Below are positions 1 through 10,249 of a stretch of DNA of 64,000 bases, piece by piece. Positions within the stretch are counted from its first letter, which is position 1. Every line of letters begins with the position of its first letter. A model generated the notes under the pieces. That model was given only the letters and a program-made list of their open reading frames with translations. It was not told the DNA's origin and searched no databases. Source of the stretch: Clostridia bacterium (lineage in GTDB: Bacteria; Bacillota; Clostridia; Peptostreptococcales; Acidaminobacteraceae); assembly GCA_018399635.1 (NCBI GenBank), contig JAGYOH010000003.1:62001-126000 (forward strand). The letters run 5' to 3'. Made by a program: the position numbers and the translations under genes.

Positions 1-3000
1 GAAGTTTCTGGTATTCGTCCTCGAGAACCCTGAGGATCTTGATGGCATTGTGGATGCTGATCCTGGAAAGCTCGTAGATCGCCGACTTTTTCGCCCCCTT
101 GATGTAACTGGCGGAGGCATAGGGCAGGATCAGGTTGATGGAGGGAATGATGAAGGATTCCAGACTCTGCCCCCGGTAGAGGGTATCCCCGCCGAGGAAG
201 GGATACATCTTGCTCTCGTTGAACCAGACATTCAGCCGGGGAATGAAGTAGGCGGAATCCACCGCCTGGTTCTGAACCTCCATCAGGGTTTTCCCTCTGC
301 CCGACATGATGCCCACGTACATTTTCTTGATCTTGACCTCCTGGGCCTTGAAGATGGGCTCCAGGGCCTTGATCCGATAACCCTTGTTGAGAAGGTCGTC
401 CACGAGAATGATGGGGCGGTTGAAGGATTTGATCATTTTCACCTGATTGTTGAGATCCAGGTAGTAGGGATAGGCTTCGATTTCATGCTCCCGGATATTG
501 GGATGCATGAATTTTTCCGTATGCATGGACTTGGTCACCGTATTGGGCAGGATCCGCTTTTTCAGGATCTCACCGAAGGGGACGCACATGGCCTCTCCCA
601 GTTGTCTCGGTTCCAGGGGCTCGGGAGGCATGTGGTTCTCCTCGGCGATTTTCTTGATGAGGTGCTCGTAGATCATGGTGCGGTCGAAACTGATGACCAG
701 ATGGCCGGGATAAAGCTCCGTCAGGGCCAGGAGGAGCTTCTTCCTGGTTTTCTCGATGACCCTGGTCACCTGGGGATTGTGGTTGAAGGGCTCCTTGATC
801 ATGGACTGCACATCGAGATTCAGGGTGCAGGGGGAGCTCATGTTGACATGGAAAATGCAGTTGCCGTCCTCCGAACAGGTTTTGATGAAGCCCTGCAGAC
901 TGAGGACCTCCTCCACTTCAACGTGGGGGGTGGATAGAATATAGTCCCGGTAGATGGCGTAGGTGTAGTCCTTGGACAGGGCGTAGGCCAGAGTCTCCGT
1001 GAGGAGGACCTGGGCCACATTGTTCATGGCCCCGTGGTCCACGGGATAAATCCCGTCGAGGAGGAGGAGTCTGCCTACGGAATTGTCACGGATCTCCTCC
1101 GCCAGAACCGGATCCATGAACTCGGAATAGATCTTGCTGGCCCTGAGCCAGTGGAAGAAGGAGAATCCCAGAATCCCCGCATGGGTGCCCCGTTTTTTCA
1201 GCACCAGGACCCTGACCATCCGCTTGCGGATATAGGCCTCGATCCTCTGGAAATCCACGGGATTGAACTGGGGAAGATGCTTGAGAAGCTCATACAGGTC
1301 GTCCTTGGAGATGTCATCCACGATATTGACGTCTATGGACTTGGTGCTCATGATTTCCTTGTACTGGGGTTCTCTCAGATACAGGCCCTTTTCGTAGATG
1401 TACTTCTGGGCCAGGGGATCGATGAGCTCCGAAATGTCCCGGTTTTCATCGATATAGGTCCTGATCTGGGTGGAACTGATCATCTGCAGCTTCTCCGGCA
1501 GGGTCAGGTAGGTCACCTCCATGTCATAGGCCGCCACCTGCTTCTGCAGGGCTTCGAACTCCACCCCCATCTCGTTGCTTTCATCCCTGGTGAAGACGAT
1601 ATGCCTGAGGGAGTGGATGCTGTGGGTTTCCCGGGGCTTCTGGTAGGCCGTGGCGTTCATGATGACATCGCTGCCCACCACCAGACTGACCTGGGCGTCC
1701 CCGAAGTACCCCTTGAGGTTTTCGATATCCGCATAGTTGGCGATGTTGATCTGCAGGTCCCGGGGGAAGACATAGAGGTTGAACTCGTCGGCGAGGCTCA
1801 TCTTGATGATGGCCCGGCGGATCAGGTTGGGCTGGGTCCTTTTGGACCAGGAAAACTCATCCACGGCGAGATAGACCTCGTAGCCCAGATCCCGGATCCT
1901 GGTGGCGATTTCCTTGTGGGACAGACTGAAGGGGTCGAAGGCCCCGGGAAAGTAGGCGATCTTTTGTTTTCGGGGCAAGGTGATTCTGCCGTACTGGAAA
2001 TTGTATTCCGAGACGAAGCGATAGATGTGCTTGATGCCGGCGGCGTTGTTGAGGAAATTGAGTTCAAGGCTTTCATCATTGTTGACCAGGAGGGAAAGGA
2101 ATTTTTTGCCCACGATCTGGAAGACAATGGCCTTCTCCTTCAAAGAGAGGATTTTTGAACCGAAAATGTCTCTTCCCAGAACGTTGATGGCCATCTGGAT
2201 GACCTGGGGTTCATAACTGACATAGCCGTTCATCACGATGTTCAGAAGCTCCTTGAGGCGTTTTCTCAAAACCTTGTCGGATTCATTGAAGGCATCCTTG
2301 TATTTGGGGTAATTGACGATGAAAACCCCCACCGTCTTCAAAATCAGGGTGCTGATCTGCCGGTTGGACTTCTTGATCTTGTCCTTGAAGTCGCGAATGA
2401 TTTCATCGAGTTCCTTGGGCGCGATATGGATCAGCATGACCCCCAGATAATCCGGAATGTATTTGGTATACTGGAAATTTTCCAGCTCGAGGGCCTTGAG
2501 AAGCTCCACGACAATCTCGGTCTTTTCCTCGATGGAGAGATGACCCGTCAGATAGATCAGTCCCTCTCCGATGGCCGTCCGCACCTCCTCGGAATTGATG
2601 ATCTTGAGCATGTTGCTGAAATGCAGGGCGGTGTAGAAACCCTTGGATTCCTTGTTGATGATGCCGTACCTCAGGAGAATCTCCACCTGGAGCTTTTTGG
2701 TGATCATCTTCGTCCCCACCTTGAGATTGCTCAGGAAGAGGTCGGAGGAGTGCTCGATTTCCGAATAGATGAAGGTGTTCTTCTCCCTGGCCAGGGGATT
2801 GTCGGGCTGGAGGGCCTCGAGGTTCTTGATGATGGCGTAGGCCTCGGTCCGGTCAATCTGGTCGATGTCCTTGAGGCGGCCGGAGAGATCGATGGTCTCC
2901 CTGGTCTCGGCATTCACATAGGGCAGGAGGGCATTGAGGGAATCCCAGGCCGTCAATCTCACCTCGTAGTCCTCGTGACGGGTCATCTTGAGGACCCTTT

Positions 3001-4720
3001 GGATGACCTGGGAGGAAAGCTGGGAGCTCATGATGTAGATGGGCAGGACCTTGACCACGTCAAGAAAGCACATCATATGCTCCCCTTTGTTGCAATGGGG
3101 CTCGATGCTGCCCAGGATCATGTTGAGTTTCTCGAGCTTCATCTCTTCATCCACGTGCTTGAAATACCCCTTGATCATGGGCTTGAGATTTCTTGAAATC
3201 AGTTCCCGGTGCTTTTCGATGATTTTCTGGGGAGGATTCAGAAAGTCGTTGATATACTTCTTGAGCAGGTCGTCGGAGTTGATGTCAAGAGAGGAAATCC
3301 TCGCCCCCTCGGGGAGTTCCTTGCGGATCACCTCATCGAAGGTGGCCACCATTTCACCGATGAGACTGGCCGATTCGATGCGGATGTCCTCCTCCGGAGT
3401 GATGAGGCGTTCATAGAGAAATTTGATCACCATGAGCTTCTGCTTCTGAGTCAGATAGGTGTAGTATTCCTGGATGATGGCGATATAGCCCCTCAGGCTG
3501 TCGATGTTGTCAAAGCCCCTGGCATTTTCGAGAATCCGGTTCAAACTGTTTTCCGTCTTGATGAGATTCATGAGACTGATATTGTGACTGATGGAGACGA
3601 ATTTGGTCCCCTCGACGATTTCCTGGCCTTGAACCAGGGAGTAGTAGCGCCTTTTGGGCATGATGACGGGACCCTTTTCAAGGTCAAAGGAGGGGTCGAG
3701 GTTGATTTCATAGCGTCTGAGGAAGTTCTCGAAGTCCCTGAGCTTCTCGTAGACCCTGCGGTAGCGCCGGGTCTTCTTCTCGTCGAGATTGTCGAGCTTG
3801 TTCAAGATCACTTCAAAGGAATCCTTGAGGGTATAGAACTGCATCTCGAATTTGGCGTTCTGCTTCACCCTGAAATCCGAATAAATCAGCAGCAGGGACT
3901 CGAGGGTCAGGTTCTCCAGCTCCAGGTCCCAGGTGGAATGATTGATGGCGATGTTCCGGATATAGACGATATCCCGCTCCCTGAACCATTCACCGGAGTA
4001 ATAATAGTGGTAATAGGCCACCTTGTGGGCCTCTTCAGGCTTGCAGCCGAATTTTCCGATATCGTGGCCGGCGGCGGCACCGGAGACCAGGCCAAGGTCG
4101 ATGTCGAGGCCTTTGAGCTTCAGCTGCCTGGCGATGCTCATGGAAATATGGTGGACCCCGCAGATGTGGTCCAGGGTATTGTAACCGATGACGTCCTGGT
4201 TGAGCTTCATCATTTCATAGACGTAGTCGTTTTCAAAACTTCGGAGGAAACGCCGGTACTCGTCCCTGGAATCAAAGGCCTTGTACTCCTCGTAGTCGAG
4301 GAGGACCAGGGGGTACCTGCTGGGCCACTTGGAGGATTCCGCCTGCTTTTCAAACCTGAAAATGACCTGGAAGAGCTTCAGGGCCAGTTCCATGGCGCCG
4401 CTGTTGTCCGGTGTGGTTTTGAACTGGACCGTCTGTGGGAAGGATTTCCCCAGGGCGTAATGGTAGACGTACTCCAGGATGTTGTCACCGGTGACGGCCG
4501 GATCCTGATTGATCTGAAGAATCAATCCCTTGAAGACCTGAAAAATCCTTTTGCTGTCATAATCCTTGCCGGACACGCAGGCGTTCATCTCTTTATAGAA
4601 TTCATTGCCGAAGATATAGGCCTCGATCTGCTCATTGTCGAGGCGGTATCTTTCCAGGAATTCTTTTGAGAGCACTTCAATCTTGATCTGCTCGAATATT
4701 TTGCTGGAAATCTTGTACAT
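1..4720 (-). CDS. Giant multidomain HD / NadD-like nucleotidyltransferase / phosphoribosyltransferase protein (3' end outside window)
   Basis: An open minus-strand frame starts at ATG 4720, behind an AGGGGATCAG-type site, and is still open at base 1, giving at least 1,573 codons. Visible parts in order: an HD metal site with H190/H191, H219-D220 (GHDIGKFG), a later INHST and IYSDFR, matching the H...HD...H...D pattern; a long Leu-rich helical region, about residues 330-900, with HEAT-like stretches; a nucleotidyltransferase domain with FPGAFDPFSLSH (D929) and ISSTQIR (about residue 1080), the hallmarks of NadD/PPAT enzymes; a GNAT-like stretch (about 1140-1260); and a PRPP-binding-type motif ILVDDLLNKG (D1440, D1441). 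HD plus NadD-like domains recall separate NadD and YqeK proteins. Role unknown; a nucleotide or NAD-related function is inference. The domain calls are by motif only. Confidence 0.8.
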   Translation of the reverse strand, partial: MYKISSKIFEQIKIEVLSKEFLERYRLDNEQIEAYIFGNEFYKEMNACVSGKDYDSKRIFQVFKGLILQINQDPAVTGDNILEYVYHYALGKSFPQTVQFKTTPDNSGAMELALKLFQVIFRFEKQAESSKWPSRYPLVLLDYEEYKAFDSRDEYRRFLRSFENDYVYEMMKLNQDVIGYNTLDHICGVHHISMSIARQLKLKGLDIDLGLVSGAAAGHDIGKFGCKPEEAHKVAYYHYYYSGEWFRERDIVYIRNIAINHSTWDLELENLTLESLLLIYSDFRVKQNAKFEMQFYTLKDSFEVILNKLDNLDEKKTRRYRRVYEKLRDFENFLRRYEINLDPSFDLEKGPVIMPKRRYYSLVQGQEIVEGTKFVSISHNISLMNLIKTENSLNRILENARGFDNIDSLRGYIAIIQEYYTYLTQKQKLMVIKFLYERLITPEEDIRIESASLIGEMVATFDEVIRKELPEGARISSLDINSDDLLKKYINDFLNPPQKIIEKHRELISRNLKPMIKGYFKHVDEEMKLEKLNMILGSIEPHCNKGEHMMCFLDVVKVLPIYIMSSQLSSQVIQRVLKMTRHEDYEVRLTAWDSLNALLPYVNAETRETIDLSGRLKDIDQIDRTEAYAIIKNLEALQPDNPLAREKNTFIYSEIEHSSDLFLSNLKVGTKMITKKLQVEILLRYGIINKESKGFYTALHFSNMLKIINSEEVRTAIGEGLIYLTGHLSIEEKTEIVVELLKALELENFQYTKYIPDYLGVMLIHIAPKELDEIIRDFKDKIKKSNRQISTLILKTVGVFIVNYPKYKDAFNESDKVLRKRLKELLNIVMNGYVSYEPQVIQMAINVLGRDIFGSKILSLKEKAIVFQIVGKKFLSLLVNNDESLELNFLNNAAGIKHIYRFVSEYNFQYGRITLPRKQKIAYFPGAFDPFSLSHKEIATRIRDLGYEVYLAVDEFSWSKRTQPNLIRRAIIKMSLADEFNLYVFPRDLQINIANYADIENLKGYFGDAQVSLVVGSDVIMNATAYQKPRETHSIHSLRHIVFTRDESNEMGVEFEALQKQVAAYDMEVTYLTLPEKLQMISSTQIRTYIDENRDISELIDPLAQKYIYEKGLYLREPQYKEIMSTKSIDVNIVDDISKDDLYELLKHLPQFNPVDFQRIEAYIRKRMVRVLVLKKRGTHAGILGFSFFHWLRASKIYSEFMDPVLAEEIRDNSVGRLLLLDGIYPVDHGAMNNVAQVLLTETLAYALSKDYTYAIYRDYILSTPHVEVEEVLSLQGFIKTCSEDGNCIFHVNMSSPCTLNLDVQSMIKEPFNHNPQVTRVIEKTRKKLLLALTELYPGHLVISFDRTMIYEHLIKKIAEENHMPPEPLEPRQLGEAMCVPFGEILKKRILPNTVTKSMHTEKFMHPNIREHEIEAYPYYLDLNNQVKMIKSFNRPIILVDDLLNKGYRIKALEPIFKAQEVKIKKMYVGIMSGRGKTLMEVQNQAVDSAYFIPRLNVWFNESKMYPFLGGDTLYRGQSLESFIIPSINLILPYASASYIKGAKKSAIYELSRISIHNAIKILRVLEDEYQKL

Positions 4721-4776
4721 CTGATCCCCTCCTTGGATTGATTTTAACATGAGTGCCGCAAATTCACGAAACCCTT

Positions 4777-4805
4777 TTGTTTTTACCCTGCAATTATTGT
4801 ATAAT
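4777..4805 (+). promoter_or_regulatory. Promoter of the 82-aa membrane protein gene
   Basis: TTGTTT (4777-4782), a 17-bp spacer and a perfect TATAAT (4800-4805) lie just upstream of the ribosome site GGGGAGGTG and the ATG at 4823. Confidence 0.6.
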
Positions 4806-4822
4806 ACAGGGGAGGTGAATGT

Positions 4823-5071
4823 ATGGCAAAGTTCGATTTGATTGAGTACAAGAAAAAAGTGGATGCCGAGAGAATCGCCCGCGGCGGGGGTCAGAAAGAG
4901 GAAGATCTCCTGGAAAAGATTCTGAAGGTCTTCGTAGTGGCCATCTCCCTGGCAATCCTATACGATTTCCTCCTGACCTACGGTTTTTCCACCGGCATCA
5001 ACCTCTCCATCGCAGCCGTGTTTGTTTTTCTGACGGCCCTGAGAGCCAAAAAAGTCTTTCGGAAAAAATGA
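4823..5071 (+). CDS. Small membrane protein of unknown function
   Basis: This 82-residue protein has a charged N-terminal half (about residues 1-30, rich in Lys/Glu) and two hydrophobic segments, about residues 35-52 and 56-74, ending in a basic tail (AKKVFRKK). Start ATG is supported by GGGGAGGTG 5 nt upstream and by a good promoter. I recognise no family. It stands alone between two divergently or convergently oriented genes and is followed by a hairpin terminator. It could be a small membrane accessory protein; no function is proposed. Confidence 0.75.
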   Translation: MAKFDLIEYKKKVDAERIARGGGQKEEDLLEKILKVFVVAISLAILYDFLLTYGFSTGINLSIAAVFVFLTALRAKKVFRKK

Positions 5072-5072
5072 G

Positions 5073-5098
5073 TCCTGCACTCAAAATGCAGGATTCTT
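5073..5098. terminator. Bidirectional terminator between convergent genes
   Basis: TCCTGCA (5073-5079) pairs with TGCAGGA (5087-5093), followed by T-rich sequence on the plus strand and by ACTCATTTTTT on the minus strand. It serves the 82-aa gene and the YihY gene; the YihY stop codon lies in the loop. Confidence 0.65.
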
Positions 5099-5890
5099 TT
5101 TGCCTTCGAAGAAAAACACCACCTCGGCACCGATGAGGATGATCAAGGCATTGATGTAAAGCCAGAGGCTCAAGAGGATGATGGCTGAAATCCCGCCGTA
5201 GATCACCGACATCCGGGTGAAGGTGTTGATGACGCCGGAATAGGCGATGGCATTGATCAGCCAGCCGGCCAGGGCCAGCAGGGCCCCCTTCGAAGCGCTT
5301 GTGAAGGCCACCCTCTGATTGGGCCCCCTCATGTAGATCAGGAGGATGAGGGCGTAGAAGACCACCACGATCACGATCCATTTCACCCTGGAAAAAAAGC
5401 TGATCACAAATCCTGAAAGGTTGAAAAAAGGACTGACGAATTCAAGAAATCTCACCCCGATTACCGGCAGAATCAGAAAAAGCACGATGACCAGGATCAG
5501 GCCGAAGGTGTAGAAAAAACCGACGAGCCTGAGATAGAGGAAATTTCTGCTTTCATCCACCTCGAAAACCACGTTGATGGACCGCATCATCCCATGAACT
5601 GCTTTAGAGGATGACCAGAGGGTAAGAATCAAAGAGGTGGAAATCACTCCGGTGGCGTTGAAGGTGATCTGATTGATGTAACCCAACAAAAAATCCTGGA
5701 TGTCCGGGGGGACAAAAACCTCGGCAAAATCGAAAAGGACCTTGGAATCCAGAGAAAACCGGCCGATCACCGTGAAAAGCACCACCAGAAAGGGAAACAG
5801 GGACATGGTGAAGAAAAAGGCCATCTGACCGCTGTAGGCCTGAATATGATGTTTTGAGTAATTGCTTTTGATTGCTTGAAAAAGTTCCAT
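5081..5890 (-). CDS. YihY/virulence factor BrkB family membrane protein
   Basis: A 269-residue integral membrane protein with about six hydrophobic segments. Family features seen are the N-terminal AYSGQMAFFFTMSLFPFL stretch (residues about 18-35), the central LWSSSKAVHGMMRSINVVF segment, and the C-terminal YGGISAIILLSLWLYI segment. These match the YihY/BrkB family, once misnamed RNase BN; the family's function is not established. A longer reading from 5965 is possible, but the GAGGTG site directly before ATG 5890 and the loss of similarity upstream favour the shorter product. It is divergent from hflK. Confidence 0.85.
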   Translation of the reverse strand: MELFQAIKSNYSKHHIQAYSGQMAFFFTMSLFPFLVVLFTVIGRFSLDSKVLFDFAEVFVPPDIQDFLLGYINQITFNATGVISTSLILTLWSSSKAVHGMMRSINVVFEVDESRNFLYLRLVGFFYTFGLILVIVLFLILPVIGVRFLEFVSPFFNLSGFVISFFSRVKWIVIVVVFYALILLIYMRGPNQRVAFTSASKGALLALAGWLINAIAYSGVINTFTRMSVIYGGISAIILLSLWLYINALIILIGAEVVFFFEGKKNPAF

Positions 5891-5967
5891 GAAAGCACCT
5901 CTACCCCCATTATATGCTATTTGAGCAGAATTGAAAAAGAAATCCATTTCAAAAAGGAGGTCCATTT

Positions 5968-6924
5968 ATGAAAAACGGCAAATTAATCCCCCTGGTGCTG
6001 ATTCTCATCCTCATCGCGTTCATCGGATTCCAAAGCTACTATTTCCTGGAAAACGCGGAAGAGGCCGTGGTCCAGCGCTTCGGCAAACTCCATTCCGTCG
6101 TCACCAGTTCGGGACTCAACTTCAAGATTCCCCTGGTGGACAAGGTGACCATCGTCCGGACCAATGAAATCCTCAGCGTCCAGTACGGCTACCGGCCCGA
6201 CGAGACCCCCACTCCCACCACCTCGGGAACCTACACCGACAACCTGGGAGAGGCCATCGTCCTGACCAAGGGCTCGTATCTTGTCAATGTCGGCGCCGTG
6301 ATCCAGTACCGGATCACCGACCCCGCCGCCTATCTCTTCAATACCGACGACCAGATCGGCACCATCCGCCTGGCCTTTGAAAGCGTCCTCAGGAGAAACA
6401 TGCAGAACAAGGACCTGGAGCAGGCCCTGATCAACAAGGAGGTCATCGCCACGGAACTCGCCCCCGAGCTCTCCAAAAAGCTCTCGGAATACGGCCTCGG
6501 ACTCACCATCACCGATGTGAAGTTCACCGACATCCTCCTGCCTGAATCCGTCCAGTTCGCCTATGACGACGTGAACAATGCGGAAAACCAGAAGACCGAG
6601 TACCTCTCCAAGGCGGCCCGTTACCAGAACGAGCAGCTGCCCGACGCCAGGGCCCAGGCCTACCAGAGGATCCAGTCCGCCGAGGCCTACAAGGCCCAGA
6701 CGGTTTCCCAGGCCATCGGGGACGTCCAGCGTTTCGTCCAGGTCTATGAGAAATACGCCGAGGCCAAGGACATCACCAGAACCCGTCTCTACCTCGACAC
6801 CATGGAAAAAATCCTGACCACGGTCAGCGCCAAGACCTTTATCGACATGGAGGGTGACGGGACCGTGAAATACCTGCCCCTCAATCCCAGCAGTCTGACG
6901 GGAGGAGGAACTGTCAATGAATAA
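5968..6924 (+). CDS. hflK: HflK-like SPFH/band 7 membrane protein
   Basis: This 318-residue protein has one N-terminal membrane segment (about residues 6-26) followed by an SPFH domain (NAEEAVVQRFGKL, then IPLVDKV) and a long Ala/Gln/Glu-rich helical region (about residues 200-270) typical of HflK. In other bacteria HflK and HflC form an annular membrane complex that modulates the FtsH protease. Start ATG follows AAAAAGGAGG. It overlaps hflC by 8 bp, so the two are surely co-translated. It lacks the Gly-rich N-terminal extension of E. coli HflK. No ftsH is nearby. Confidence 0.88.
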   Translation: MKNGKLIPLVLILILIAFIGFQSYYFLENAEEAVVQRFGKLHSVVTSSGLNFKIPLVDKVTIVRTNEILSVQYGYRPDETPTPTTSGTYTDNLGEAIVLTKGSYLVNVGAVIQYRITDPAAYLFNTDDQIGTIRLAFESVLRRNMQNKDLEQALINKEVIATELAPELSKKLSEYGLGLTITDVKFTDILLPESVQFAYDDVNNAENQKTEYLSKAARYQNEQLPDARAQAYQRIQSAEAYKAQTVSQAIGDVQRFVQVYEKYAEAKDITRTRLYLDTMEKILTTVSAKTFIDMEGDGTVKYLPLNPSSLTGGGTVNE

Positions 6925-7939
6925 AAACCAATTCGAACCCAACGACTTCAAGCGCTATTCCGACGAATTCAAGTCCAGGGCGGCCTCCGCCAAAAAAACC
7001 GCCGGACAGATGATCAAGTACGTCATACTCCTCATCCTTCTGATTCTTCTAGTGGGAGTCTTCACCAATTTCACCTACATCGTGGAGGAAGACGAGGTGG
7101 CCACCGTGAGACAATTCGGTGAAATCACCAAGATCGTCGTGGACCGGGACAACGACGTGGCCCGGCAGCAGAACGACTTGATCGACAGCTTCGCCAATAT
7201 CGAAATCATCAAAGACAAGGGTCTCTTTTTCAAGATCCCCTTCATCACCCAGGTGGACAAATACTCCAGCAAGCTGATCACCTATGTCTCCAACGTGGCC
7301 AACATCAACACCCAGGACAAGATCAAGTATGAAATCGCCATGTTCGCCCAGTGGGAAATCTCCCACCCCGGCCTCTTCAGGTCCTCCCTGGGCACCGCTA
7401 CCAAGGCCAACAGCATCATCGACGAGATCGCCTACGCCGCCGTCATCGAAAAAGTCAACAGTCTGAGTTCCGTGGACTTCCTCACCAACAAGGAAATGCT
7501 CTACGAAGTCCTTCAGACCGCCAAGGAGGAACTCAACGAGGATCTCGCCCTCAAGGGGATCGTCATCCGGGATATCGAGGTCTACCGCACCATACTGCCT
7601 CCCTCCAACATCGAATCCACCTACAATAAAATGATCGCCGAGCGGGAAGCCATCGCCGAGCAGAAACGGGCCGAGGGCATGGAACTCTACCAGAACACCG
7701 TGGCCGATACCGACCGCCAGGTCGCCACCATCATTGCGGAATCCATCGAAATTGCTGAAAAGACCATCGGTGAAGCCGATGCCGCCGCTTCGGAGATCTA
7801 CGCCGATGCCTACAGCGTGGACCCGGAATTCTATGAATTCTGGCGCAGCCTCAGTGCCTATGAAAACGCCTTCGATGAAAATACCGTGATCTACCTTGAC
7901 CGCTCCAATCCCTTCATGAAGTATTTCAATCAGAACTGA
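6917..7939 (+). CDS. hflC: HflC-like SPFH/band 7 membrane protein
   Basis: A 340-residue partner of HflK. It has a longer cytosolic N-terminus (residues 1-32), one membrane segment (about 33-52), the SPFH start (YIVEEDEVATVRQFGE), and a helical region with AEREAIAEQKRAEG, a very typical HflC motif. The C-terminus ends with a conserved-looking VIYLDRSNPFMKYF segment. The start is supported by GGGAGGAGG overlapping the end of hflK. A strong terminator follows, so the operon is two genes. The role as an FtsH modulator is inferred from family knowledge. Confidence 0.88.
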   Translation: MNKNQFEPNDFKRYSDEFKSRAASAKKTAGQMIKYVILLILLILLVGVFTNFTYIVEEDEVATVRQFGEITKIVVDRDNDVARQQNDLIDSFANIEIIKDKGLFFKIPFITQVDKYSSKLITYVSNVANINTQDKIKYEIAMFAQWEISHPGLFRSSLGTATKANSIIDEIAYAAVIEKVNSLSSVDFLTNKEMLYEVLQTAKEELNEDLALKGIVIRDIEVYRTILPPSNIESTYNKMIAEREAIAEQKRAEGMELYQNTVADTDRQVATIIAESIEIAEKTIGEADAAASEIYADAYSVDPEFYEFWRSLSAYENAFDENTVIYLDRSNPFMKYFNQN

Positions 7940-7951
7940 CCACCCATCAAA

Positions 7952-7985
7952 AAAGCTGGAGTCCGATGACTTCAGCTTTTTTTTG
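7952..7985 (+). terminator. Terminator of hflKC
   Basis: AAAGCTGGAGT (7952-7962) pairs, with one mismatch, with ACTTCAGCTTT (7969-7979) and is followed by a run of T. Confidence 0.8.
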
Positions 7986-8002
7986 CATGGATGCCGGAGG
8001 AT

Positions 8003-8485
8003 TCATGGCATCCTGGTGACGGACTGGTCCTCGAGGGCGGCGATCCAGTCATGGACGGCAATCCCCCGGATCCTGAGCCCAGGAGCGATTTCCCCCAGGG
8101 GAATCAGCACGAAGGCCCTCCGGGTCATGTAGGGATGGGGAAGGGTCAGGTCGTCTTCGCTGATTTCAGCCTCACCCATGAGCAGAATATCGATGTCGAT
8201 GAGCCTCGGCCCCCAGACTTCTTTTTTGATCCGTCCCATCCGCTTCTCAATCCCCTGGGTCGCCTCAAGCAGCTCATGGGGGGTCAGGCTGGTGAGGATT
8301 TCAAGACAGAGATTGACAAAGGGGGGCTGGTCCTCCCTGCCCCAGGGTGCGGTTTCGTAGAAGGAAGAAACCTTCACCACCTCGAGGCCCTCCAGGGCCT
8401 CGAGGTGAAGGATCCCCTCTCTCAAATGCTTCACCGGATTCCCCAGGTTGGATCCAAGACTCAAATATCCGATGGTCTTAGACAT
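8003..8485 (-). CDS. folK: 2-amino-4-hydroxy-6-hydroxymethyldihydropteridine diphosphokinase
   Basis: This 160-residue enzyme transfers pyrophosphate from ATP to 6-hydroxymethyl-7,8-dihydropterin, the step before dihydropteroate synthase. Signatures: SLGSNLGNP (residues 9-17), the family motif WGPRLIDIDILL (91-102) whose Asp pair binds magnesium, and LPHPYMTRRAFVL. Length is normal for single-domain HPPK. It is the last gene of the folate operon and overlaps folB by 25 bp, so its ribosome site GGGGTGA lies inside folB. Confidence 0.95.
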   Translation of the reverse strand: MSKTIGYLSLGSNLGNPVKHLREGILHLEALEGLEVVKVSSFYETAPWGREDQPPFVNLCLEILTSLTPHELLEATQGIEKRMGRIKKEVWGPRLIDIDILLMGEAEISEDDLTLPHPYMTRRAFVLIPLGEIAPGLRIRGIAVHDWIAALEDQSVTRMP

Positions 8486-8829
8486 AAAGTCACCCCGAAA
8501 TACTCAAACTCACCCTTGACCGGCGCTCCGGGCTTTTCCACCTTCACCTCCAGGGCCTCGACCCCGGGATGATTCGTCAACACGGCTTTTCCGATTTCAA
8601 AGGCCAGTTTCTCAATCAGATCGAAGGTGTTTTCCGCCACCACCCGCCTGACCTCCTCATAGACCTCGGCGTAGCTGACCGTATCCGCCACCCGGTCGGA
8701 CCGGCCTGCAGCCTTCAGATCCAGGGTGAGCTCTAGGGACACCACAAAGCGCTGGCCCAGGACCTTCTCCTCCGCCATGACGCCATGGTAGGCGTAAAAA
8801 CCCATGTTCTTCATGGTGATCCTGTCCAT
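8461..8829 (-). CDS. folB: Dihydroneopterin aldolase
   Basis: A 122-residue protein that converts 7,8-dihydroneopterin to 6-hydroxymethyl-7,8-dihydropterin. It begins with MDRITMKNMGFYAYHGV, the usual FolB N-terminus with the catalytic-site FYAYHG motif; E20 and E21 follow, then the YAEVYEEV stretch and the conserved ...TFDLIEKLA segment (about residues 62-70). Start ATG overlaps the folP stop codon by 1 bp (TGATG), showing translational coupling. The downstream folK start lies inside its 3' end. Confidence 0.94.
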   Translation of the reverse strand: MDRITMKNMGFYAYHGVMAEEKVLGQRFVVSLELTLDLKAAGRSDRVADTVSYAEVYEEVRRVVAENTFDLIEKLAFEIGKAVLTNHPGVEALEVKVEKPGAPVKGEFEYFGVTLCLRPSDI

Positions 8830-9659
8830 CAGAAAGTCCCCCTCATCAGGGCGTCCATCACCCGGGCCATTCGATAGTGTTCCTTGACATCGTGGACCCG
8901 GAGGATGTCACACCCCGTCATGATACCGAAGGCATTGGTGGCCAGGGTCCCCTCGAGACGGTCCGAAACCGGCAGCTTCAGAATCTCCCCGATCATGGAC
9001 TTCCTCGAAGTCCCCAGGAGCAGCGGAAAACCGAAGGCCTTGATTTCCGCCAGCCGGTGCATGACCAGAACATTCTGCCGGGGGGTTTTCCCGAAACCGA
9101 TACCCGGATCCAGAATGATGTTTTCCTCCCGCATCCCCGCCTTGAGACCCGCCTCGACGGCTTCATCGAAGAACTTCTTCATGGCTTCGATGATATCCCC
9201 GGCGTAGGCGGTGCCCTCCTGGTTGTGCATGAGGACCACCGGCACCTGGAATGCCGCCGCCACCCGGGCCATCTCCGGGTCCCGGTGGAAGCCCCAGACA
9301 TCATTGATGAGGTGGGCTCCGGCTTCCAGAGCCCTTTTTGCCATCTTTGACTTGTAGGTGTCGATGGAGATCAGGGTGTCCAGACGCCGCCCCAGGGCCT
9401 GGATGAAGGGCAGGGTCCGGGCCATTTCCTCCTCCAGGGATACCGGGGCATGCCCCGGCCGGGTGGATTCCCCCCCGACGTCGATGATATCGGCCCCCTC
9501 CAGAATCATCTGTCCCGCCCTTTCAAGTCCCGGGTCCAGCTCCTTGAAGCGACCGCCGTCGGAAAAGGAATCCGGGGTGACATTGAGTATGCCCATGATC
9601 AGGGTTCTTTCCCCTAGAACCAGGGTCCTGTCCGCGACCTTGAGAATTCTTTCTTGCAT
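8829..9659 (-). CDS. folP: Dihydropteroate synthase
   Basis: This protein condenses hydroxymethyldihydropterin pyrophosphate with p-aminobenzoate and is the sulfonamide target. Motifs: MGILNVTPDSFSDGG near residue 20, GADIIDVGGESTRPG (about 50-65), the IDTYKSKMAK loop, LINDVWGF and ILDPGIGFGK. Three in-frame ATGs compete (9680, 9668, 9659). I chose 9659 because GGGAGAGG sits about 9 nt upstream; 9680 overlaps the folE stop as ATGA but has no clear ribosome site. With start 9659 it is 276 residues, normal for DHPS. Frame extension further upstream overlaps folE and is spurious. Confidence 0.94.
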   Translation of the reverse strand: MQERILKVADRTLVLGERTLIMGILNVTPDSFSDGGRFKELDPGLERAGQMILEGADIIDVGGESTRPGHAPVSLEEEMARTLPFIQALGRRLDTLISIDTYKSKMAKRALEAGAHLINDVWGFHRDPEMARVAAAFQVPVVLMHNQEGTAYAGDIIEAMKKFFDEAVEAGLKAGMREENIILDPGIGFGKTPRQNVLVMHRLAEIKAFGFPLLLGTSRKSMIGEILKLPVSDRLEGTLATNAFGIMTGCDILRVHDVKEHYRMARVMDALMRGTF

Positions 9660-9676
9660 CCCTCTCATCCTCTCCC

Positions 9677-10249
9677 TCATCTCAGATTGATCAGACTCAG
9701 AGCCTCGGACCGGCTCTTGTCGTCGGTTTTCATGATGCCCCTTACAGCGGAGGTCACGGTCCTGGAACCCGGCTTTTTCGCCCCTCGCATGGTCATGCAC
9801 ATGTGCTCGGCTTCAATCACCACGATGACCCCGTAGGGATCGAGTTTTTCCATGATCAGGTCCGCCACATCCGAGGTGATCCGCTCCTGGAGCTGGGGTC
9901 TTTTAGCCACGGCATCCACCACCCTGGCCAACTTGCTGAGCCCCGTGAGGCGGCCGTTTTTGGGAATGTAGCCCACATGGGCCTTGCCGTAGAAGGGGAC
10001 GAAGTGATGCTCGCACATGGAGTAGATGGGGATATCCTTGACCAGTACCAGCTCGTTGTGGTTTTCATCGGCAAAGATCACGTCAAGGTGCCTGCCGGGA
10101 TCGTCATCGATTCCTGAAAAGATTTCCTCGTACATGTCGGCGATCCTTCTGGGGGTTTCAAGGAGGCCCTCCCTTTGAGGATCCTCTCCGATGGCCTCGA
10201 TGATCTCCCTCACTGCTTTTTTGATTTTTTCCTTATCCATAGTTTTCAA
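9677..10249 (-). CDS. folE: GTP cyclohydrolase I
   Basis: A 190-residue enzyme that converts GTP to 7,8-dihydroneopterin triphosphate, the entry to pterin synthesis. Hallmarks: [19 protein letters not shown] (about residues 75-95), containing the zinc ligand Cys and catalytic His residues; GLSKLARVV; the QERIT segment; and [11 protein letters not shown] with the second zinc Cys. Length is standard for type IA. The start overlaps the pabC stop by 4 bp. Confidence 0.96.

Follow-up and report, generated by a model that had tools for sequence, protein, structure and literature searches.

The window, a 64,000-nt stretch (C23:62001-126000) of a 2.36-Mb draft genome, begins inside a very large gene. 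A minus-strand reading frame stays open from window position 4750 to beyond base 1; extending the contig leftward (locus L002), as the earlier note had proposed, completed the gene, the frame continuing uninterrupted to a stop 166 bases outside the window. A strong Shine-Dalgarno sequence, aaggaggggatcag, lies ahead of the ATG at 4720, so the earlier note took the correct start, and the protein is 1,628 residues long. The gene fills window positions 1–4720, its last 55 codons and stop lying to the left (complete gene L002:13834-18720). A sigma-70-like promoter (TTGCCA-17-TATTAT, a consensus match only) is located upstream of the operon at 4801–4829 on the same strand. Farther upstream, at 5081–9800, translations alone suggest a YihY-type membrane protein, an HflK/HflC-like pair, and a folP-folB-folK folate cluster.

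Left of the window, the giant gene is followed on the same strand by an LDH-like gene (gene 2, L002:12756-13868) and an Fe-S flavoprotein-like gene (gene 3, L002:11741-12784). The three genes overlap and are bounded by the promoter-like site and, just after gene 3, a terminator-like site (L002:11734-11719). A TtcA-like tRNA thiolation gene (L002:10961-11731) converges on the operon, and the same gene is found in the same place in the distant loci L036 and L088.

The single long frame described in the earlier note is real, and the motifs quoted there lie where it put them: the HD dyad at residues 219–220 (numbering from the upstream ATG is ten higher), GAFDPFSLSH, ISSTQIR, and ILVDDLLNKG. Two AlphaFold models cover residues 1–915 (mf507ca397de5, mean pLDDT 90.3) and the C-terminal part to the window edge (mf4433cc5350d, mean pLDDT 90.7). 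The model and the alignment define an N-terminal helical region (residues 1–174; 4199–4720, as all domains on the minus strand) that has been given no family assignment, followed by an HD domain at 3761–4198 with its dyad at 4061–4066. The HD ligands, H195, H229-D230, H248, H271, and D292 in upstream-ATG numbering, are identical in 75–76 of 77 aligned proteins, the rest being gaps; PF01966 matches 9 of 18 members (best 1.3e-3). Among HD enzymes, this extended H..HD..H..H..D set of six ligands is characteristic of dinuclear members, YqeK being one (PMC8177086), and its presence supports a predicted dinuclear-type HD domain in the giant protein. When the YqeK profile, TIGR00488, was run on the same genome (G000), it matched on contigs C34 and C32 and not on C23.

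The next segment, 1982–3625, is a HEAT/ARM-type helical solenoid, a fold often seen in scaffolds that bind protein or RNA. Across model residues 378–913, Foldseek and VIA show its resemblance to importins, CAND1, and SF3B1, and PF02985 matches 9 of 18 members (best 8.8e-6). The solenoid leads into a NadD/NMNAT-fold nucleotidylyltransferase at 1373–1975, with GAFDPFSLSHK at 1913–1945 and ISSTQIR at 1460–1480. The model superimposes on NadD (4rpi_B) with Z 20.1 and an rmsd of 2.5 over 187 residues, and PF01467 is present in 70 of 70 members. Catalytic residues are invariant or conservatively varied across the 77 aligned proteins: position 942 is S or T, position 944 is S or G, His945 is found in 77/77, and SS[TS].IR is conserved. 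The NadD ATP site, (T/H)xGH plus ISSTxIR, is therefore present, with a Gly-to-Ser change as a variant. Nevertheless, the NadD profile TIGR00482 gives 48.6 bits (43.2 in another search) against a curated cut-off of 112.45, and, relative to the NadD of the same genome, PPHK is replaced by an invariant SWSK and the usual Trp by Tyr. Ordinary NadD and YqeK are both encoded in 15 of the 15 genomes tested, which argues that the giant protein is not the housekeeping NAD enzyme; together with the active-site differences, this makes an acceptor other than NaMN likely on sequence grounds.

A GNAT-like fold at 815–1342 is the least conserved part of the protein. It is suggested by the model, the conservation profile, and a viral-library Foldseek search, the only library to return N-acyltransferases (prob 1.0, target TM about 0.4–0.6); matches listed in PDB fold searches were NadD or HEAT proteins. 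A GNAT Pfam model matched 1 of 70 members (E 0.09), and inspection of the conservation profile of the 77 proteins revealed no conserved stretch resembling the acetyl-CoA loop R/Q-x-x-G-x-G/A.

The C-terminal segment in the window, 104–775, is assigned with moderate confidence to a type-I PRTase-like domain, with ILVDDLLNKG at 380–409. Its modeled strand order is like that of the PRTase fold, and viral-library matches include PRTases and PRPP synthase; PF00156 reaches an E of up to 0.1 in 18 of 70 members (best 2.5e-4). In the VDD motif the first Asp is found in 77/77 proteins and the second in 72/77. The PRPP loop DDxxTGxT is absent from the 77 aligned proteins, which carry an NKGYR-like sequence in place of TG.T (here DDLLNKGYR), and the pyrophosphate-loop region is poorly conserved; because of these two features the domain may have a sensory role or be inert. 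When its profile was compared with those of PyrR and Hpt of the same genomes, no match emerged at the default setting, and a relaxed setting gave scores above shuffles but weak; comparisons with PyrR, Hpt, PurR, and PRPP synthase were likewise weak, hence the moderate assignment. Of the five domains listed in the earlier note, the NMNAT fold and the solenoid are thus strong and the HD ligand set is good, the PRTase-like domain is moderate, and the GNAT-like part stands as a fold only.

The giant protein belongs to an old single-frame family conserved across Clostridia. A search for the same architecture elsewhere, suggested by the earlier note, found a clear homologue in 67 of 99 related genomes, a count that leaves out genomes with weak NadD-like matches only. 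About 60 homologues are full-length or nearly so, mostly uninterrupted frames of about 1,600–1,700 codons with 35–90% identity, which rules out an artifact or a fusion of frames. A scan of named genomes added 80 loci, nearly all in Clostridia (Alkaliphilus, Geosporobacter, Clostridium, Sedimentibacter, Oscillibacter, Lachnospiraceae, and others); these were found by patterns that need the transferase motif, so this set is unusable for asking whether the HD and transferase parts separate. Even sampling recovered the protein in 23 of 293 genomes from the class and in 8 of 398 from the phylum, indicating that it is common in its order and scattered elsewhere. Copies L041, L080, and L085 lie on contigs labeled Candidatus Atribacteria and Flexilinea, reflecting misbinned DNA or transfer beyond Firmicutes.

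Several other associations were considered and set aside. No phage match was found, and the single 'plasmid' match is a 2.6-Mb record; this record, NZ_CP154629.1 (2.63 Mb, Acetoanaerobium noterae, filed as plasmid pTPELB2), is chromosome-sized and probably mislabeled. None of the three operon proteins matched the PADLOC anti-phage defence profiles. No link to sporulation was seen, the genome studied here having the operon and no Spo0A above the cut-off. NAPRT is found less often in genomes with the giant protein (p 1.5e-4), an effect that does not stand out clearly inside families (P 0.07); within families NadA correlates with the giant protein (P 0.001), for which small genomes losing both may be a simple explanation. 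Once families are held apart, the distributions of NAPRT and NadA show no clean link to NAD supply.

The two partner genes are constant companions of the giant gene. Of the 68 loci whose sequence extends 3 kb or more downstream, 63 have the LDH-like gene next, and in 59 the LDH-like and FMN reductase-like genes follow in fixed order; the neighborhoods of giant-protein loci contain no other conserved genes. The flavoprotein gene occurs in 63 of the 67 genomes with the giant protein and in 0 of the 32 without it (Fisher p 6e-22), and 0 of 20,000 within-family permutations matched the observed value. The four genomes with the giant protein and no flavoprotein are drafts; in G024 a contig end cuts off the flavoprotein gene, and in G033 the contig stops inside the LDH-like gene. 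Gene 2 keeps the LDH catalytic His (His253), while the position of Asp168 is Met227 in 60 of 60 aligned proteins, so that the catalytic Asp168-His195 pair of L-lactate dehydrogenase is absent, and the Asn140 position holds an invariant Asp. Gene 3 has an invariant CX2CX4CX8C motif, whose four cysteines suggest an Fe-S cluster.

Some genomes carry further copies of the giant gene outside the operon. We compared 24 loci hand-picked from search tables, known second copies included, a small, non-random set counted after the first cases had been seen; it comprises 12 operon copies, 11 copies without partner genes, and one at a contig edge that was not counted. All 12 operon copies have intact transferase motifs, and the HD part is missing in 4 of them. 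Off-operon copies show the reverse: HD ligands are kept in 10/11, and transferase motifs are lost or damaged in 9/11, typically by a His to Gln change in the signature. The second copy in the genome studied here (G000:C12:80540-84781; L119:6522-10892; 1,456 aa) follows this pattern, with intact HD ligands and a broken signature, FDPFTRGQ. Four genomes with an HD-less operon copy have, outside the operon, a further copy or fragment that spans the HD region, the motifs of these second copies having been read in G020 and G024 only. Off-operon copies occupy at least three places in the tree, so the pattern does not stem from one event, a conclusion tempered by the low number of places and by the long branches of the largest group.

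An APH-fold kinase gene (PF01636) adjoins 8 of the 11 off-operon copies (L119:5588-6493, L120:6482-7432, L121:5697-6647, L189:5791-6741, L190:5725-6651, L192:538-1470, L195:11904-12839, and L197:19-945) and none of the operon loci searched; these kinases score far below aminoglycoside-resistance cut-offs. In G034 and G025, two genomes of one genus, the off-operon copy (L120, L121) directly follows purM-purN-purH-purD, names read from translations.

The paralogue pattern shows that the HD and transferase activities are separable and that the transferase goes with the redox partners. The HD domain thus has a use without the transferase, and the transferase product probably concerns the redox pair. 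Since off-operon copies keep the PRTase-like and HD domains without working transferase motifs, PRTase and transferase need not be consecutive steps. Neither the partner genes, which lie outside the window, nor this separation between paralogues is visible from the window alone.

On this basis we tentatively favor, at somewhat less than an even chance, a multifunctional nucleotide enzyme that makes, and can hydrolyze, an NAD-like or other activated nucleotide used by the redox partners. In the direction that we assume for the pathway, the NMNAT-fold domain would nucleotidylate a phosphorylated acceptor, most likely with AMP taken from ATP, yielding an NAD-like dinucleotide or a nucleotidyl-activated compound. 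The PRTase-like domain would bind or use a phosphoribosyl compound and may supply the acceptor. The dinuclear-type HD domain would hydrolyze a phosphoanhydride or phosphomonoester, recycling the product or removing wrong ones; the solenoid would hold the catalytic domains together, and the GNAT-like fold would probably be structural. The product would serve the LDH-like oxidoreductase and the four-Cys flavoprotein as substrate or cofactor. A bolder version is rather doubtful: here the three genes would serve to produce and exploit a hitherto undescribed cofactor of anaerobic Clostridia, an NAD-like dinucleotide or a nucleotide, which the giant protein would build by phosphoribosyl and nucleotidyl transfer and break with its HD domain, while the Cys-rich flavoprotein and the altered LDH-like enzyme would act as redox partners. 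Neither the profile libraries nor the mostly open-access literature searched states a product or function for the giant protein; this literature contains no biochemical data on the family and nothing matching the architecture or the operon.

Rival readings were also weighed. PurR and PyrR are PRTase-fold regulators, and the giant protein could likewise be a regulatory or signaling hub whose PRTase-like domain acts as a sensor of PRPP or a purine nucleotide and controls how far nucleotidyl transfer outweighs the HD hydrolysis of a signal nucleotide. The non-canonical PRPP loop with its invariant Asp and Arg, the retention of this domain where the transferase dies, and the off-operon copy after the pur genes in 2/3 genomes of one genus all point this way; however, a compact operon shared with two redox proteins is more in keeping with an enzyme pathway, and no signaling domain or output gene is conserved near the loci, so we place this reading on the unlikely side. 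A macromolecule modifier, with a protein or RNA bound by the solenoid, nucleotidylated by the transferase, and restored by the HD domain, would account for a scaffold-type solenoid of more than 500 residues, but the partners resemble small-molecule redox enzymes and enzymes of the NMNAT fold ordinarily have small phosphorylated compounds as substrates, making this distinctly improbable.

The earlier note had proposed that NAD making, breaking, and salvage might be joined in one chain, a view that holds in part. An additional NAD enzyme, one that synthesizes NaAD/NAD and proofreads its product, would be in keeping with the NadD fold, the ISSTxIR and GSD motifs, the YqeK-type HD ligands, and a published NadD-YqeK fusion with proofreading activity (PMC9426524). 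Against it stand the standard NadD and YqeK in every genome tested, a transferase score far below the NadD cut-off, an HD domain that the YqeK profile does not match, the SWSK and Tyr substitutions, and the absence of a clean link to NAPRT or NadA; it would also leave co-inheritance with the redox pair unexplained, and we regard it as unlikely. An active transferase may yield an unrecognized nucleotide or cofactor of gut and soil Clostridia, and the natural split between paralogues makes the HD and transferase activities separately testable. At the center of the conserved three-gene unit stands a very large enzyme whose entire architecture no profile searched describes, and, as the earlier note had supposed, no characterized family with the same domain order was found in the profile libraries or the literature searched.

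Gene 2 shares the Rossmann domain, the catalytic His, and one Arg with L-lactate/malate dehydrogenases but has the invariant Met and Asp at the positions of Asp168 and Asn140. Gene 3 has the PF03358 domain and a four-Cys motif in common with iron-sulfur flavoproteins and FMN reductases, from which its CX2CX4CX8C spacing and additional N-terminal domain set it apart. The PRTase-like domain combines a strand order resembling that of type-I PRTases (PF00156) with a VDD motif but lacks the TG.T phosphate loop, and only 18/70 members reach even E 0.1. The transferase shares with NadD (TIGR00482) the fold (Z 20), GxFDP...H, GSD, and ISSTxIR, whereas T/HxGH becomes S/T-L-S/G-H, alongside the PPHK and Trp changes. 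With YqeK, the diadenosine tetraphosphate hydrolase (TIGR00488), the HD domain has the extended ligand set in common; spacing and surroundings differ, the profile does not match, and the domain is fused to a solenoid.

Judged by analogy, the nearest precedent for the giant protein is the mycoplasma NadD-YqeK fusion (JCVISYN3A_0380; NCBIfam PRK07152), which likewise joins an NMNAT-fold transferase and an HD hydrolase in one chain. The HD domain of the JCVI-Syn3A fusion is reported to proofread NAD synthesis (PMC9426524). That protein has about 360 aa, with NadD preceding HD, and fusions of this kind are defined by the lack of stand-alone NadD and YqeK; in the giant protein, by contrast, the HD domain is N-terminal, about 600 residues, mostly HEAT solenoid, separate it from the transferase, GNAT- and PRTase-like domains are present as well, and NadD and YqeK are also encoded as individual proteins in the same genome, as in all 15 genomes tested.
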